Source: Citrus sinensis
Taxonomy: Eukaryota; Streptophyta; Magnoliopsida; Sapindales; Rutaceae
Direction of reading: 5' to 3'
DNA: 64,000 bases
Assembly (NCBI RefSeq): GCF_022201045.2
Contig: NC_068564.1
Coordinates: 27,743,001 to 27,807,000 of the forward strand
The translations under genes were made by a program, and so were the position numbers. Under the pieces are notes generated by a model. That model saw only the letters and a program-made list of their open reading frames with translations. It made no database searches and had not been told where the DNA came from. Positions 20,183 through 59,867 of this stretch are shown here, piece after piece (within the stretch, counting starts at the first letter, position 1; every line of letters starts with the position of its first letter).

Positions 20183-23100
20183 ATGGCGAATCTGCCACAG
20201 TCGCTGTCGATGAACGTGCCGTTCGGCGGTGGGCCCAGCGCTTCGAGCCCTAGCGCCCCTGCAGGAGCTGGAGCGAACAAGGACCGGAAAATGGCGTCAG
20301 CTGAACATTTGGTACTCGACCTAAGCAATCCTGATTTAAGAGAAAACGCTCTTCTTGAATTATCAAAGGTAAATTTATCTTCGCCTCTTATTTTATAAAA
20401 ATTAAACCCTAGAGCCTCAGTTTTGGCTTTTATTATTACTTTCTTATTTATATACATTTTCTTGGCTATGAATTAGAAGCTAGGGTTTTGAGATGCCAAT
20501 GCAATTTTGTTATAATTTTGATTGATGATTTGAACATGTAAATATGGCTAAGGAGTATATACATTTGGTTCCTTTTCTCATGATCCTAAGATTAAGAGCA
20601 GTGAGGATTATATTTGGTTTCAAGGGGGTCTTTGTCCAACATTGGTGTTTTCTTGGCCTTCTTCAAATCAGGATGGATTCCCTCTTGATTTGAGCTCTCA
20701 GAAAATACATGCATGTGATTGGTATGTAAAAATCGTGAACATAATAAAAGAGTAGAGAACGTGGATAGAAATGCACACATGTCAAAACCTTCAAAGGTTA
20801 GATCAAGAGGGAATTCCAATTCTTTTTCTGTCAAATGAGTTTTTTTAACGTTGTTAACCAAAGTGAAATTGAAACATAATTCATCTTGTTCAAATTTTGC
20901 TTCAAAGAATTAGATAGCCTGTGGAGACAGGTTTTCATTTATCCAATGACTAGAGTTGACGTATTTGAATGCATGCTGCCGATGCTCGTTCTATCATGTG
21001 GTTTATGCAGTTTAAGTGTTTGAGATTTGTGTGCTGTATATAAACTAGTGTCCACCTTTGGTTTCATTTTTTAGAACAAGGAATTATTTCAAGATTTGGC
21101 TCCTTTCGTGTGGAATTCTTTTGGTACTATAGCTGCACTCATACAGGTATGCCTAATAAACTTATGTTTTGTTTTTGTTTTTATTTTTTAGAAGAGAGAA
21201 TTATTTCAAGATTTGGCTCCCTTGTTGTGGAATTCTTTTGGTACTATTGCTGCATTATTACAGGTATGCTCTTTATTTGTTGGTCTTCTATTTTTGTGTT
21301 TCTTCCCTCAGCCCCATCATTTGTCATAATTTTATATAGCTCATTCAGCAATATACTGCTTACACAACGAAGCTCTTTGTCTCTTTCATTACTTTTTCCC
21401 CCCTTACTGAAGCTTCTGCCTTTCTGTATAAAAGTTATGGTATGCTACATGGTGTTTAGTTAGGGATAATTTATGTTGATCTGATGTCGTAATTTGAGAA
21501 AGGATTAATTATAAAGCAGCAGGATGAACGGTTATGAGGAAAATGGAAAGTGGACGATTTTTTAATGGAAAGCCATGCATTTGCTTATTGTCTTTACAAT
21601 CAACTTCCGGAAAGGTCATCTGTTGTTTTTTGTGCTACATCTGTCTCTGTGCAGGAATGCAGTAATAATTGAGTTTTAATGTAGTCAGTTATTATTTTCT
21701 CTGTTCGTCATATTGGATTCACATGTTTTACCACCTTTTATCAGGAGATAGTGTCAATATACCCTGTTCTATCACCACCAAACCTTACTCCTGCACAATC
21801 AAACCGAGTTTGCAATGCACTTGCTCTTCTTCAGGTCAGTTTCATTTCTTGACGTTTTGCTATTAACTTATTGATTCGTCTTGGACTTAATTGTTACATC
21901 TGAAAAATTGGATTGTTTTTGGTTTTCACCTCATATGTATTTAAGTAGCATCCAAGAGAGAGTTAAATGTCTAATCTTTGTTGTCAAGTATCTTCACTAT
22001 CCTTGGTGGTAGTTTGCCTCATGTTATATTTTTGGGATATGAACTAGGATGTTGCGTGTTTTATTTTCCTGAATAATGTCTCTTTACTGACAAAAGAGCA
22101 AAAAGATGTGAGTTTTCATTCTGCACGATGTTAAAAGAATTAATAGCTGCACACTACAGTAAAGGAATGGTAGTTTTCGAAGATCCACGTGCTTGCATTG
22201 AAAGTCAGTCAAACTGGTTTAAAAATATAAGTTTTATGTCTCGTGTTCTCACTTATTGTACTTATGTGTTAATGACTTTGCGCAAATAATTCTGTTGAAT
22301 TTAGTTATCTCAATTGCTGTAAATTCCTGTATTTAGAGGCAAAAGTTATTAATGCTTCACAATGTTATTTTACAGTGTGTAGCCTCCCATCCAGACACAA
22401 GGATGTTGTTTCTCAATGGTAATCTTTGTAATCTTGCTGTATTCATTAGATGATTTTTCTTTTTCAATTCAAGAATCACCACAATTTTCTATAGGAGATG
22501 GTTGTTTAGGAAGATGCATATTTTAACATTTATTTGTCATGGGATGGTTCTTGCAGCTGATTGTTTCTCTTTGCAGCTCATATACCATTGTATTTGTACC
22601 CTTTCCTGAATACAACAAGCAAGTCAAGGCCCTTTGAGTACTTGAGACTTACAAGCTTAGGTGTTATTGGTGCCCTGGTGAAGGTACTTAATCAGCACTG
22701 ACTTCGAATTGCTCCAATTCATATATTATCTTGTCCATTTTCATTTGATAGGTATTTTCTTTCTAATAAAGATGATTGTTGTATCCTCCTTCCATTTCAG
22801 GTTGATGACACAGAAGTTATTAGCTTCCTTCTTTCAACAGAAATAATCCCACTCTGCCTGCGGACCATGGAGATGGGCAGCGAGTTGTCAAAAACAGTTG
22901 AGTGTGCTGATTTGTAGCCTTTTCTTTTCTGAGTGCTTTATATATTAAAATTTTCCATTTTCTCTGTTTCATCTGTAATACCATCTGAAAAGGCATTGTT
23001 TCTTTTGACATGGAATTTCTGCTTGGAATGTATGTTGAAAACAATGTCATTCAACAACGTCAGTCAATCCGCTAAAAGTATTTAATTTCAGTTGATTCTG

Positions 23101-24206
23101 GATTCACTCAGAAAGTATTTTGGGGCTGTTTTTAGAAGACAGATTGCCATTGAGATCTCAAAAGTGCTACTGCTTTATATTTTAATTATCTATTGACAAA
23201 TATTGGTGGAGATGATAAAATTGGAATTTGAACATGTAGATATGGACTCAGTTTTTGTACTTTGACATTTATGACGAAAGCCAACCCATTTTTTAAGTTC
23301 CCCCTTGATGAGAAAGGAGTTGCATTCAAACACATGGTCCCAATTTACGGTCCATCAATGCTTGACTAAAGCTTTGTGATGGCAGGTTGCGACATTTATA
23401 GTGCAGAAAATATTGTTAGATGATGTGGGCTTGGATTATATTTGTACTACAGCAGAGAGGTTTTTTGCAGTAGGGCGAGTTTTGGGGAACATGGTTGCGG
23501 CACTTGCTGAGCAACCTTCTTCGCGGCTGCTCAAGCATATTATTCGATGTTATCTGCGATTGTCAGACAATCCGAGGTGGTTTAGCTAAACAGATTTCCT
23601 TACTGCTCCCATTTCGTTTCCTTCATTCTCTTGCACAAGTTTCTAGTTCAGGTTCTTAATAGACATTTTGTTTGACTGTTCTACCACAGGGCTTGTGATG
23701 CTCTAAGAAGTTGCCTTCCAGACATGTTAAGAGATGCCACCTTCAGTAGTTGCCTTCGTGTGAGTGCCATTAGTAAATGTTTATATTATTCTCTTTATAT
23801 TTCATTACCTGTGAATGAGCTTCAGTCACATGCATTTGAGGGGTTTGGATTCCATATGGTGTAGCTTTAGTTTTTGAATATCAAATGAATGAAATTTTGA
23901 AGGTGACTGAAAATTTGATCCGTATGTCCAATGGGTCAGTTACTCAACTTATAATCTCTTCAAAAGAGAATTATCTCATCAAACTTAGCGCTGGACTTGA
24001 ATCTTTTTATGTTGCTTTCCATTTTTTTGGTTCCATGTGCTCTCGCATTCGCTTTTGGCCCACCCCAACATTATGCTTTTTATCAATGTTGGCAGGAAGA
24101 TCCAACAACAAGGAGATGGCTGCAACAGCTGCTTCATAATGTTGGAGTCAATCGAGTTCCAACACTTCAGGCTGGAACAGCATTTGATCATATGCTGGTG
24201 AGCTGA
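20183..24206 (+). CDS. CNOT9: CCR4-NOT complex subunit 9 (CNOT9/RCD1/CAF40)
   Basis: Exons: 20183-20368, then 21075-21146 or 21192-21263 (alternative copies), 21745-21834, 22376-22418, 22577-22683, 22801-22896, 23386-23576, 23690-23759 and 24096-24206. With one copy of the 72-nt exon the protein has 321 residues and every phase matches. A short Pro/Ser/Gly-rich N-terminus is followed by the armadillo-repeat Rcd1 domain (from about residue 42), with signatures [100 protein letters not shown] and [24 protein letters not shown]9 is a core, conserved subunit of the cytoplasmic deadenylase complex, bridging NOT1 and recruiting RNA-silencing and decay factors. The odd feature is the tandem duplication of exon 2, described separately. 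Confidence 0.95.
21075..21146 (+). other. CNOT9 exon 2, copy A (variant)
   Basis: A 72-nt exon (24 codons, phase 0 at both ends) with its own acceptor (polypyrimidine then TTTTTTAG) and donor (CAG/GTATGC). It encodes [20 protein letters not shown] and then ALIQ. It differs from copy B at 10 of 72 bases and 5 of 24 residues, with the substitutions conservative. The intact frame and splice sites argue that it is used, or was until recently. Confidence 0.8.
21192..21263 (+). other. CNOT9 exon 2, copy B (canonical)
   Basis: A 72-nt exon with acceptor TTTTTTAG and donor CAG/GTATGC, phase 0 at both ends. It encodes [20 protein letters not shown] and then ALLQ, which is the sequence I recall as standard for plant CNOT9. 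It begins only 45 nt after copy A ends, too short an interval for normal plant intron removal. Confidence 0.85.
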
Positions 24207-24659
24207 ATTGGAAGCAAAGCAATTTTTCAATCTATTTGATGCCCATAGTTGCAAGTCCAAACTGCGCAGCGTAGGCTGATTCATAACATTTTCACCTTTT
24301 TGTTTATGTCAATTTCTGTGGTTTAGTGTCTGTAATTAATGGGTGTTTAAGAGAGAGTCAGGTCAGGGGTGAAAACAACAAAGTTGGTTTAATCACCTGA
24401 GTTAGCTATAACTTGTCATCTGCCTCTCATTTGTAGCGTAGTAGTTTGTGATCAAGCTATTTTGTTTTGCATTGAGTGGCATCATGCTCAAAACTTTCAA
24501 ATAATTGTCGTCTTTATTTTCTGTGTTGGGGTGCGTGATGACCCACCATTTACCTATTGCAGAGTTAAAAACTTTGCTGATAAAATAATTCTTTTTTTTT
24601 TCTTTAAACTGAAATTTCTCTCTCGGTGATTTTGAAATGTATGGTGAATTGAACCTAAT
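24207..24659. other. CNOT9 3' flank
   Basis: Non-coding DNA after the CNOT9 stop, up to the start of the AT-rich TIR element. Presumed 3' untranslated region plus spacer. No coding features were recognised. Confidence 0.4.
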
Positions 24660-28204: not shown

Positions 28205-30071
28205 ATGAACCCCGAGTCCTTCACGCTCCCACGCGCCACCGTCACCGATTACCGGCTGCTGAAGGAGGCGATGCTAACCTCCCTCCCGTCTCCCGAGATG
28301 GAAGACGCAGTTTTCTACGTGGAGAACATCATCAACTACAACTTCAAAAACAAACGCCTCCTCGAAGAAGCCTTGACGCACTCCTCGTACACCGATTCGA
28401 CGTCGTATCAGCGGCTCGAGTTCATTGGCGATGCCGCCTTGGGCTTGGCCTTGAGTAATTATGTGTTCTTGGCTTACCCTCAGTTGGATCCTGGACAGCT
28501 GTCGCTTCTACGCGCCGCCAATATTAGTACCGAGAAATTAGCGCGCGTGGCCGTCAAGCACGGATTTTATAAGTTCGTCAGACACAGTGCTGCTGCTCTT
28601 GATGATAAGGTATAGTCTTAAGTTTGATTTATTGAATTACTTATCTCTTTTTTTTAATTTGGAAATATTAGTGCAGAGCTTTAAAGTTTCTTATGATCCA
28701 ATGTCTACAGGTTAGGGAGTTTGCCGAAGCAGTGAGCCAAGAAGATAATACGGCTGTGTATGGTGGATCAATAAAAGCACCAAAGGTTCTTGCCGATATT
28801 GTTGAATCCATAGCGGCTGCAATTTACGTAGACATTGATTTTGATCTCCAAAAGCTCTGGATGGTCCGTTAGCTAATTTAAATCATCTCTCAACAGCACA
28901 CTAATACATAATCTTTCTGACTTTTTTTTTTTAGAATTCTATAGTTTTGACTAAAGATAATTGCTTTTGAATGTTTTCTAGATCTTTAGGGGTCTTTTAG
29001 AGCCAATTGTAACCCTTGAAGAATTACAGCAACAGCCCCAACCAGTTACACTATTGTTTAAGTTATGTCAGAAAAATGGAAAGCAAGTTGATATCAAGCA
29101 CTGGAGAAAGAACAGAAAAAATATTGCCAGTGTATACGTGGACGGCAGTTTTGTAGCCTCGGCTTCTTCCGAGCAGAAGGAAATTGCTAAGCTTAATGCT
29201 GCAAGGGAAGCTTTGGAAAAGTTAGCACAATCAATGCCAGTTAATTGTGATGTCTGTGAAATTTTTGATGATATTGATGAGAAGTTTGAGATTGAAGCAG
29301 CCAAACAGAAATTGCATGAACTCTGCGGAAAGAAGAAGTGGCCCAAACCAAGTTACAAGTATGAACCCATGACCTATTAGTAATTAAATTATAATTTTAG
29401 TTAGACTTCATGGAAAATCTTGCGTTTTAACTTTAATCCTTCTTTTACAGATAAATTTGCATCTTCAATTCTGCTGTGAACATATGCATATGATGATGCC
29501 TGCATACAGTAGTTTTATCTCATGACATTTTATACCAACATAAATTTGTGAGTGGGTCTTATGGATACTGTATGTTTGAATTCACAAATATTGTGTTATA
29601 TGCTGATATCAGTATCTTTTAGCTTGTATCAGAATCATTTACATTTGATGTGTTCTTTTAGTTACTTAAACAATGCAGTCCAGCAGTTTAATTCTTCAGT
29701 CCATCAGTGACATTATGTCATGCTGTATTCATTTATTTGAATTGACTAAGTTTGTCTGAATTCTGAATTAATAAGTCACATATACTTGCTCGTCTTCTTT
29801 CATATAACAGTTTCATGCCCTGCATCTTTCTTAGCCTTCCCACCCTTCCATCTAAGATGTATAACCCCTTTTCATCCTTCCTTGAATTTGTAGGATTGAG
29901 AAAGATGAGGGTCCTTCACATGATAAGAAATTTATGTCTGCAGTTCAGATTGCAACTACAGATGGTGTGCTTTTTATCACGGGAGATGAAAAATCAAGAG
30001 TAAAGGATGCAGAGAATTCTGCCGCTTCCATGATGCTTCGTGCCTTGCGTGAATCCACTTATCTCTGCTAA
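28205..30071 (+). CDS. RTL2: RNase III-like protein with two dsRBDs (RTL2 type)
   Basis: Exons 28205-28609, 28711-28863, 28982-29358 and 29894-30071 join in frame to give 370 residues. Residues about 35-175 form an RNase III domain. The signature reads QRLEFIGDAALGLALSNYVF, where the usual first Glu of ERLEFLGD is Gln, but the second Glu and the Asp remain. The distal acidic motif is ADIVESIAAAIYVD. Two dsRNA-binding domains follow (about 195-255, and 285-368 with KDAENSAASMMLRALRES). RTL2 proteins cleave dsRNA and trim rRNA 3' external transcribed spacer and small-RNA precursors in plants. The second intron has an unusual donor (ATG/GTCCGT). The neighbouring branching-enzyme and RTL2 genes are also close together in Arabidopsis chromosome 3, from memory. 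Confidence 0.92.
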
Positions 30072-30534: not shown

Positions 30535-32184
30535 TCAATTTAGAGGACTAGACCGTCCAATAAGTTCCTTTGCTTGAACAACGGTTTCCTTGAACCTCTT
30601 TACATTGATCTTCAAATTCTGGGCATCAATATACACAGCTCTAGCAGCGTAATAGCCCTTAGCGAATACACTTGCTGGATCAGTAATAACTGGATGATCC
30701 CTTCCATAAGTCTGCATGAGAGAGCTCTCCTCTGGTTCGATCTTGTACTCCAAGTATTGCACGCCCATTTCTTTTGTCGGTGCACCGTAGTAATTAGTCG
30801 AAGCCCACTCCAGCCCCAATGGCACCACCTGCACCATCACTGCTCCATCAGGCAAGAACACTTGGTTTGTCAGGCCAGCACCGTGAGCTCCGACCAGAAC
30901 GCTGCACGAGTTCACCAGTGCAGCAAACTTGTTCAAATTTGACATCCTGTTAGGCCTCGTCACAACAACTTCAAATCCTAACTCCTCCATCATGACCACT
31001 ATTTCATTTTCATTCGAAACCACTCGCGATTTCTTACGAGATATTAGGATTAGTATTGGCTTTTCTCTCTTTATCTCGGAGACATTCTTGATTTTCAGAT
31101 TGTAGGATTCTCTAAGGAAGTGCTTGAAGTCAAACGCAGAGTACCCTCCGGGAATATCGGTGGCGTTGAGGGCTAACTTGCCATGGTACACAAGTCCTAT
31201 GACTGCTCCTGGAAAACAGTGAACGGCGTTACCATTTGCAGCTGGATTTATGGCTTCATAATGGGACAAATGGGTTAGAACTTTGCTGTATTTACTCACC
31301 CACCAGGGCTTGTAATCAGTAATGAGAAATTTCAGACGGGATCGGAAGTGGCGGGTGGTGATGAATAAAGGAATGATAACTTCATTTATTTCATGGAATA
31401 CGTTTCCTGTGAAACCACCGGAGGAGAAAACAACTGCCGGGGCATCATGAGTGATACGACATGCAGGGGCGTTTACGTCTCCATTGACTATCTTCACTGG
31501 TGAAACTCTACTCATTGCAGTCCCATCATCCCTATTTGCATACGGTTTAAGTGTCCGATTTACGTAGGATTGAGAGGAGGGTACGTAAATTGTTAATCCA
31601 CTGTTGTCAATTCTAACCGGTTTGTTTACCAGACACAGTTCAGAGTGAAGGTCAGTGTGGCAAGAGAAGCCTGTTGTGTCAAGCTTTATACGATCTTCAC
31701 CTGTACGCAGATTGAAAGATTTTATTACATTGGTTATTAAATAAATAGCTTTACCATAATTGATTTCACCTACTATATTTTTTTTTTCCAAACATATTTG
31801 TACATGAAAGCAAGTTGAGACTGCCAGTGAATTTATATAAGAATACCAGAGCCCAGAGATGAAGAAAGAACCTCTCACAAGTCTTCTTAACAGAAGCTTC
31901 ACGGACTCATTGATTTCAATGGTTCTATCAGCCTTTTTGTTGTGGATACCTCTCCAATCTGATAACTTTTGCTTCCCTTCAAAATGAAACAGCTCTAGTT
32001 AGCCTAGGTAATGAACCAAAGACTCAAAATCTCCGTATCTAATTTTGCCAGGTTTTTTAAGGAAATTACATGACTCAAAAGGTGTCAAATTTGATGTGAA
32101 GAGAGCAGCATAAAGACATGTAAGAATAAAAAGAAAAACGAATGATGTTGCACCAAGCGCCATCTTCTTTTGCTCCTTTCCCAT
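30535..32184 (-). CDS. GT61 family glycosyltransferase, copy 1
   Basis: Three minus-strand exons (32184-32070, 31976-31872, 31700-30535) join in phase to give 461 residues. It is a type II Golgi protein: a short cytosolic Lys-rich start, a transmembrane anchor (about residues 10-30, FVFLFILTCLYAALF), a stem, and then a DUF563/GT61 catalytic domain. Family signatures include VVFSSGGFTGNVFHEINE, WWVSKYSKVL, ILISRKKSR, LVGAHGAGLTNQVFLPDGAV and VQVVPLGLEW. Plant GT61 enzymes of this shape add arabinose or xylose to xylan, or GlcNAc/xylose to N-glycans; the exact donor cannot be read from sequence. The third copy of the GT61 motif HGAGLTN is intact, so it is likely active. Confidence 0.9.
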
Positions 32185-33074: not shown

Positions 33075-34680
33075 TCAGTCCAGAGGACTTGACATTCTAA
33101 TATGTTCCATTGCTTGAACAATTGTCTGCCTGAACCTTGTTAAATTGATCTTCAAATTCTGAGCATCAATATACACAGCCCTTGCAGCAAAGTAGTCCTT
33201 TGCGAATAATGATGCTGGATCAGTAATGATAGGATCATCCCGACTGTAAGTCTCACTGAGAGTGCTCTCCTCTGGTTCAGTCTTGTACTCCAAGTATTGC
33301 ACACCCATTTCTCTTGCCGGTACACCAAAATAGTAAGTTGAACCCCACTCCAGCCCCAGTGGCACAACCTGCACCATCACTGCCCCTGCGGGCAAGAACA
33401 GCTCAGTTGTTAGACCAGCACCATGTGCTCCAACCAGTACACTACATGAGTTCACCACCTCAGTAAATTTGTTCAAATTTGACATCCTATTAGGCCTTGT
33501 CACAACAACTTGGAATCCCAATTCCTCGATCATAACCACCATTTCATCTTCATTTAGGAACTTTCTTGAATTACCACGAGATATGAAAATTAGAACTGGT
33601 TTTTCTCTCTGTATCTCGGAAACATTCTTGATTTTCAGACTATATGCTTCTCTTAGGAACCGCTTAAAGTCCACCATTGAGTACCCTCCCGGAATATCGG
33701 TGCTGTTGAGAGATAAAAAGCCATGGTACTTGAGCCCTATAACAGCTGCGGGAAAGCAGTGAACATTGCCATCTGCTGCTGGATTTATAACCTCGTAACG
33801 AGTCAGAAGCGAGAGAATGTTGCTGTATTTACTCACCCACCAGGGTTTATAGTCTATGATCACAAACTTGACTTGGGAGCGGAAATGGCGGCTGGTGATG
33901 AATAAAGGGATGATAAGTTCATTGAATTCATGAAATTGGTTTCCTGCAAAGCCACCAGTAGAAAAAACCACAGCGGGAACATCATGAATGAAATGACAAG
34001 CAGGTAAATGATCAGCATCTCCATTAACTATTTGTACTGGTGTAACATAGTCCAGTGCAAGTTTCGAAGGATATGGTCTAATCACTCGTTTAACTTGGGA
34101 TTGAGAGGATTCAATGTAAACTGTTAATGAATTGTTGGCAATCCTAACTGGTCCGTTTGCAACACACACTTCAGAGTTAATATCGGTGTCGCAAGTGAAG
34201 CCTGTTGTGTCAAGCTGGATCCTGTTTTCACCTGCACATGCATTGAAACATTTTCATAGACCATATCCATCTATCTGCATTTTTCATTAATACTGCTTAT
34301 TGTATTATTAGAATGCTAGAGATGAAAGAAGAAAGAACCTCTCACAAGTCTCCTTAACAGGAACTCTAAAGAATCACTTATTTCAATGGCTTTGGCATCC
34401 TTTTTGCTGCTGGAATTGCATCTGAAATTTAACAACTGCTGCTTCCCTTCATAATTTAATCACTTTATTCAGTCAACTTAATTAACAATAAGCTTAAACT
34501 AATCACCAAACTTAATTTGTTCACATTTTCTTTTTAATGCTAAATGTAATGAAAATGATACTTACATGACTCAAATGGTGTGACATCTGAGGCAAAAAAT
34601 ACAGCAAAAAGCCAGGCAAGAAGAAGTAGGAAAGCTACTGAAGTTGCAGTAAGCACTAGCCTGTTTTTCTCCTTCCCCAT
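33075..34680 (-). CDS. GT61 family glycosyltransferase, copy 2
   Basis: Three minus-strand exons (34680-34566, 34446-34339, 34231-33075) give 459 residues. Exon 1 is 115 bp in both copies and all phases are the same as in copy 1, which confirms the model and the tandem duplication. A transmembrane anchor lies near residues 9-30. The catalytic domain has VVFSTGGFAGNQFHEFNE, WWVSKYSNIL, LIFISRGNSR, LVGAHGAGLTTELFLPAGAV and VQVVPLGLEW. The start context and cytosolic tail MGKEKNRLV are similar to copy 1. Both copies keep the conserved HGAGL motif, so both may be active; substrate preference cannot be told. Confidence 0.9.
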
Positions 34681-38887: not shown

Positions 38888-39301
38888 GGAGTAATGATAC
38901 AGTCACAAACTCTTGTACAAACTTATTTTGTACAAACTGACATGGCATTAATTCATTGGTTGAATGAAAATATAAATTAATAAAAATAAATCATGTGGGC
39001 CAAGTGATATTTAATTGAGTAATGATATAGCCACAAACTCTTGTACAAACTTATTTTGTACAAACTGATGTGGCATGATAAGATTAGTTGAATTAAATAT
39101 CACTTGGCCCATATGATTTGTTTTTATTAATTTATATTTTCATTCAACCAATGAATTAATGCCACATCAGTTTGTACAAAATAAATTTGTACAAGAGTTT
39201 GTGGCTGTATCATTACTCTATTTAATTTAACCAATCTTATCATGCCACATCAGTTTGTACAAAATAAGTTTGTACAAGAGTTTGTGGCTGTATCATTACT
39301 C
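38888..39301. mobile_element. Self-nested hAT-type MITE pair
   Basis: The outer MITE is 203 bp, split as 38888-39016 and 39228-39301. It is bounded by inverted termini (GGAGTAATGATAC and GTATCATTACTC) and by a perfect 8-bp target duplication TAAAGCTT (38880-38887 and 39302-39309). A second 203-bp copy of the same family, in the opposite orientation, sits inside it at 39017-39219. It is flanked by its own perfect 8-bp duplication ATTTAATT (39009-39016 and 39220-39227). Eight-bp duplications indicate mobilisation by a hAT-type transposase supplied from elsewhere. No coding sequence is present. Confidence 0.9.
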
Positions 39302-39309
39302 TAAAGCTT

Positions 39310-59787: not shown

Positions 59788-59867
59788 AGGTGAACAAAAT
59801 TCTAGTGCCCCTCTATGTTCGACTCCTAGGTGAACAAAATTCTAGTGCCTCTCTATGTTTGACTCCT
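59788..59867. repeat. Tandem duplication, two 40-bp units
   Basis: AGGTGAACAAAATTCTAGTG and the 20 bp after it are present twice in a row, with two base differences. Confidence 0.9.

Follow-up and report, generated by a model that had tools for sequence, protein, structure and literature searches.

In Arabidopsis, FLM/MAF1 is described as a gene with two short alternative early exons (2 and 3), only one of which enters each mRNA, and for the region that these exons occupy, interaction motifs have been predicted (PMC3266260, PMC5853260). In these respects it can be likened to the layout proposed here for an exon pair in a CNOT9 gene of Citrus sinensis. However, FLM/MAF1 encodes a MADS-box factor and not a component of CCR4-NOT, and its two exons are given as 19 and 15 residues long, the 3' one being called cryptic, whereas the CNOT9 exons encode 24 residues each and are plainly copies of one another. 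Another parallel is found in exons 4a and 4b of vertebrate OGDH, which are also duplicated exons with branch points near the upstream donor and a U-rich tract before the second exon; there, exclusion is reported to be enforced by branch points at distances of 25-41 nt from the donor, and a threshold of about 50 nt was proposed (PMC7969005). OGDH differs in being an animal gene whose branch points were mapped experimentally, while those of CNOT9 are motif matches that lie 10 and 18 nt inside the intron.

Within the CNOT9 family itself, Arabidopsis has two versions of the subunit, NOT9A and NOT9B, and only NOT9B is reported to bind phytochrome A (phyA) (PMC8009681). Two versions of one subunit could be made in Citrus as well, but from one gene with two exons instead of from two genes. 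In grapevine, the CNOT9 gene Vitvi19g00539 has a regulated alternative coding exon whose inclusion falls when veraison sets in; one variety showed a drop from 0.46 to 0.15, and the second a drop from 0.28 to 0.09 (PMC8543832). This event was scored as exon skipping by rMATS, in a study whose four event types did not include mutually exclusive exons; the passages that describe it do not specify the exon, so that it cannot be equated with the present locus. Precedents for mutually exclusive exons therefore exist in plants and animals, and the CNOT9 pair would add another case. To our knowledge, exon swaps that alter a docking helix and keep the protein whole have been described for few plant genes. 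Among the papers listed in searches on plant CNOT9 and on plant mutually exclusive exons, judged by titles and the starts of abstracts, no report of this pair was found.

The window analyzed here is a stretch of 64,000 nt of the C. sinensis genome (NC_068564.1, positions 27,743,001 to 27,807,000), and all positions refer to it unless stated otherwise. Its gene content fits a flowering plant. Apart from the gene under study, it contains a minus-strand open frame (297-1658) that encodes a gag domain of the copia type, a plus-strand open frame (28205-28615) with a ribonuclease III-like domain, which probably begins an RNase III-type gene, and two adjacent open frames with glycosyltransferase family 61 (GT61) domains (30535-31902 and 33075-34169, minus strand), likely a tandem gene pair; STIG1 and DUF568 domains were also recognized.

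A complete CNOT9 (Rcd1/CAF40) gene occupies positions 20183-24206 of the plus strand and encodes a product of 321 residues. Its coding region consists of nine exons and one extra, exon 2 being present as two copies, A and B (table 1). Both isoforms belong to the CNOT9/CAF40 family: against the Rcd1 profile (Pfam PF04078, curated cut-off 37.7) the B isoform scored 429.2 bits and the A isoform 422.4 bits, and both aligned over domain positions 1-260 of 260. The gene product also matched CNOT9/RCD1 homologue and CAF40 chains (six distinct sequences) with E values from 1.6e-125 to 4.2e-100.

Table 1. Coding exons of the Citrus sinensis CNOT9 gene and elements flanking the two copies of exon 2.
Feature	Positions	Strand	Remarks
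CNOT9 coding exon 1	20183..20368	+	62 codons; donor AAG/GTAAAT (exon/intron border after AAG)
Exon A acceptor region	21036..21074	+	3' end ATTTTTTAG
Exon 2 copy A	21075..21146	+	72 nt, phase 0, 24 residues
Spacer between A and B	21147..21191	+	45 nt; A donor GTATGC, U-rich tract, B acceptor
Exon 2 copy B	21192..21263	+	72 nt, phase 0, 24 residues; donor GTATGC
CNOT9 coding exon 3	21745..21834	+	Spliced gene model
CNOT9 coding exon 4	22376..22418	+	Spliced gene model
CNOT9 coding exon 5	22577..22683	+	Spliced gene model
CNOT9 coding exon 6	22801..22896	+	Spliced gene model
CNOT9 coding exon 7	23386..23576	+	Spliced gene model
CNOT9 coding exon 8	23690..23759	+	Spliced gene model
CNOT9 last coding exon	24096..24206	+	Stop codon ends at 24206

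Exon 2 is a tandem duplicate in this gene. The two copies are identical at 62 of 72 bases and 19 of 24 residues, and the five residue differences (given as B/A) are K/N at 63, R/K at 64, L/F at 73, L/V at 74, and L/I at 85. The splice sites are shared, both donors reading GTATGC and both acceptors ATTTTTTAG. The best 72-nt self-match in a 5-kb segment reached 65 of 72, while the maximum in 200 order-1 Markov sequences was 43, which excludes a chance origin of the repeat; a BLAST comparison of the copies gave an E value of 2.5e-27 over 96 nt. This length equals the clear repeat unit, made up of 18 nt of acceptor, the exon, and 6 nt of donor, and the copies are spaced 117 nt apart. Without gaps, identity beside the exons was 16/18 before the acceptors and 6/6 after the donors, with 7/21 further upstream. 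A gapped alignment covered 21040-21151 against 21156-21268 and would imply a head-to-tail repeat unit of about 117 nt, so that similarity seems to extend about 35 nt upstream; a shuffle test gave no significance for the distal 21 nt on their own (P = 0.08). A sequence-only reading of this DNA had proposed a tandem duplication of exon 2. Our recheck reproduced its coordinates, identities, phase 0, 45-nt spacer, and in-frame TAG at the spacer's end, and the excess of the self-match over the Markov maximum bears out the duplication itself.

With the low-complexity filter on, three short-range repeat pairs of at least 50 nt were found in the window (3 of 13 BLAST rows), the exon pair being one. 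The other two lie within what looks like one palindromic element of about 415 nt at 38889-39303, which consists of two direct-repeat pairs (81 and 83 nt) in opposite orientation, carries AAAGCTT near both ends, and looks MITE-like by eye. A shorter tandem repeat, two copies of a 40-nt unit that are 95% alike, lies at 59788-59867.

The whole genome (299.7 Mb in 11 contigs) was then searched for relatives. A DNA search found the exon pair in one place only, the window. Of 15 candidates scored in a search for the Rcd1 family, 8 matched at E ≤ 0.01, and all of them belonged either to this gene or to a paralogue on contig C2 at about 19.375 Mb (C2:19374583-19377342); a 57-residue query agreed, its 5 matches being confined to the same two genes. 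The paralogue is 46-77% identical over five tblastn pieces (E < 1e-6) and, by analogy, may be called a divergent NOT9C-like gene. It has one copy of exon 2, and no direct repeat of at least 25 nt was present in the 2,501 bases examined. The 24 residues of its exon 2 match A at 16 positions and B at 17; the exon begins with NKE like A, and in residues 63 and 64 A has the state of the paralogue and B that of human CNOT9. The Rcd1 genes recovered from this genome were thus two, a conserved one and its divergent paralogue, with the duplication seen in the conserved gene only. Among bacterial and archaeal contigs, 41 pattern matches were obtained and none was confirmed, and the DNA pattern had 0 matches; 5 pattern matches in viral contigs were likewise not confirmed as relatives, as expected for a plant gene.

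The arrangement of the two exons fits mutually exclusive exons of the tandem-duplication type, as judged from equal length and phase, a reading frame that is kept, and a tight spacer. In a survey of plant splice sites, the shortest experimentally validated intron cited was 56 bp; the same source mentions reports of human introns around 30 bp long and of introns as short as 10 bp, and doubts whether the name intron fits (PMC6310983). The spacer contains two matches to the branch-point motif YTNAY, CTAAT and CTTAT, whose adenines fall at 21156 and 21164, respectively. Of the two, CTAAT is the best match for B, and its A is base 10 of the spacer. Upstream of A, the sole YTNAY match within 60 nt is 9 nt from the AG, and TCCAC at 21051-21055, read by eye, is a weaker candidate; by motif, therefore, B has the better putative branch point. 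Because the spacer of 45 nt is shorter than 56 bp and the branch-point match lies 10 nt from the donor, under the threshold of about 50 nt cited for OGDH, splicing from A to B should by analogy be blocked.

Based on these features, we put the probability that each mRNA carries either A or B, with A presumably in use, at about two in three. The proposed sequence of events is as follows. A short tandem duplication, comprising exon 2, its acceptor region, and the first donor bases, would have created two alternative second exons. U1 on the donor of A and U2 on the branch point of B, 10 or 18 nt into the intron, would be unable to coexist, and an intron of 45 nt would be too short to be spliced, leaving each mRNA with A or B. 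B, which is nearer to the human sequence and has a consensus branch point, would be the default copy, and A the weaker and probably regulated alternative. The sequence itself establishes the duplication, the open frames, the intact splice-site sequences, the length of the spacer, and the stop that follows from its retention; we infer that both copies are spliced in vivo, that the exclusion is steric, and that their use is regulated. Mutually exclusive use had also been the sequence-only reading, which is supported in part: the anatomy agrees with it wherever sequence can test it.

Folding of the 261 nt around the pair gave no support for exclusion through local RNA structure, since the z score was +2.33 and all 200 shuffles folded at least as well; no arm lay in the spacer among the best 25 of 28 inverted-repeat pairs. 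A 15-nt stretch at 24583-24597 shows partial complementarity to the first bases of both exons. It lies beyond the stop codon in AT-rich sequence and was treated as a chance match.

The most serious competing explanation, which we regard as unlikely, is that B is constitutive and A a dead or nearly silent leftover of the duplication, skipped for its poor branch point and with little time to decay. The lack of a consensus branch-point match at the usual distance from A speaks for this, and so does the match to human CNOT9, which is 19/24 residues for B and 15/24 for A. At matched divergence, a neutrally evolving A would keep an open frame with P = 0.638, and the shortfall of replacements in A alone was not significant in a Poisson test (P = 0.089; 9.5 expected if half of the silent changes are A's). 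On the other hand, the changes in A are unusually conservative: given an open frame and five changes, the probability of a BLOSUM62 sum of at least 5 was 0.012-0.019 across eight settings, which agrees with the earlier impression that the differences are mostly conservative. A two-lineage simulation gave the probability of an open frame with at most five differing residues and a mean BLOSUM of at least 1. With A neutral and 8 mutations per lineage (mean identity 62.4/72), it was 0.0115; with A constrained at an omega of 0.2 and 16 mutations (mean identity 62.0/72), it was 0.143. These are two of twelve settings, picked as nearest to the observed identity, and cases with fewer differences are counted too. 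All simulations rest on simple models of our own choosing, and the exon tested has only 72 nt.

For the pair as a whole, the A/B dN/dS was 0.34 (averaged paths), and a Fisher test on hand-counted sites, 5/57 nonsynonymous against 5/15 synonymous, gave P = 0.028. When the paralogue served as outgroup to polarize the base changes, 4 were assigned to A, 4 to B, and 2 to neither, although the paralogue is distant (54/72 to each copy) and repeated hits are likely. Replacements made up 3 of the four changes in A and 1 of the four in B. The absence of an excess of changes in A, and its donor and core acceptor being identical to those of B, also argue against a dead copy. On balance, copy A looks conserved as a protein-coding exon, though some of the tests were not significant.

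The consequences for the reading frame bear on a further alternative. Joined to the other eight coding exons, A and B each give 321 residues; skipping both gives 297, 24 residues fewer; and retention of the spacer between A and B gives 100, owing to an in-frame TAG in its last codon (21189-21191). These spliced translations confirm what had been read from the sequence, that either exon alone yields a full-length CNOT9 and that retention truncates it. The truncated product makes it conceivable, but in our view highly improbable, that the pair is an unproductive switch, in which mRNAs with A, the retained spacer, and B would lower the dose of CNOT9 via nonsense-mediated decay. A poison exon has no need to encode a complete, family-like protein, as A on its own does, and the conservative changes suggest selection on the protein. 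Least credible of all are joint inclusion of both exons, which are in phase and would together add 24 residues but are separated by a 45-nt intron with its branch-point match so close to the donor, and an assembly error, since copies that differ at 10 of 72 bases are unlike an assembly duplicate.

If A and B are indeed used one at a time, the swap falls in a region with known partners. Binding of NOT1 to Arabidopsis NOT9B is reported to be stopped, and that of phyA to be impaired, by the joint change H70A V72A A77Y V85Y; the two partners compete for this site, and the authors hypothesize that its residues help to set the differing partners of NOT9A and NOT9B (PMC8009681). By spacing, H70, V72, A77, and V85 would correspond to N76, F78, A83, and I91 of the Citrus protein. 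On this putative mapping, N76, F78, and A83 lie within exon 2 and are identical in A and B, and I91 lies in exon 3. From helix periodicity, the A/B differences at 73, 74, and 85 would lie within about one helical turn of the mapped residues. Around the helix that binds NOT1 and phyA, use of A would replace L, L, and L with F, V, and I, and KR with NK, and the swap could tune the docking helix without touching the mapped site residues. The sequence-only reading had expected the isoforms to differ in partner binding. Much of the NOT1/phyA site mapped in NOT9B does lie in the exon, but the expectation is weakened by the three site residues that A and B share, with the five changes surrounding them, and any effect on binding is hypothetical.

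A bolder and quite doubtful extension is that, where only one conserved CNOT9 gene is present, switching by splicing between two versions of the NOT1/phyA-binding helix does the work of the Arabidopsis NOT9A/NOT9B pair in tuning the partners of CCR4-NOT, and that this switch is old and shared with other eudicots, the ripening event of grape being one instance. For plants, the locus also offers a compact natural case in which to test exclusion by an intron that is too short. If both exons are used, the exon swap in CNOT9 could alter which mRNAs or light-signalling proteins are met by the main deadenylation complex.
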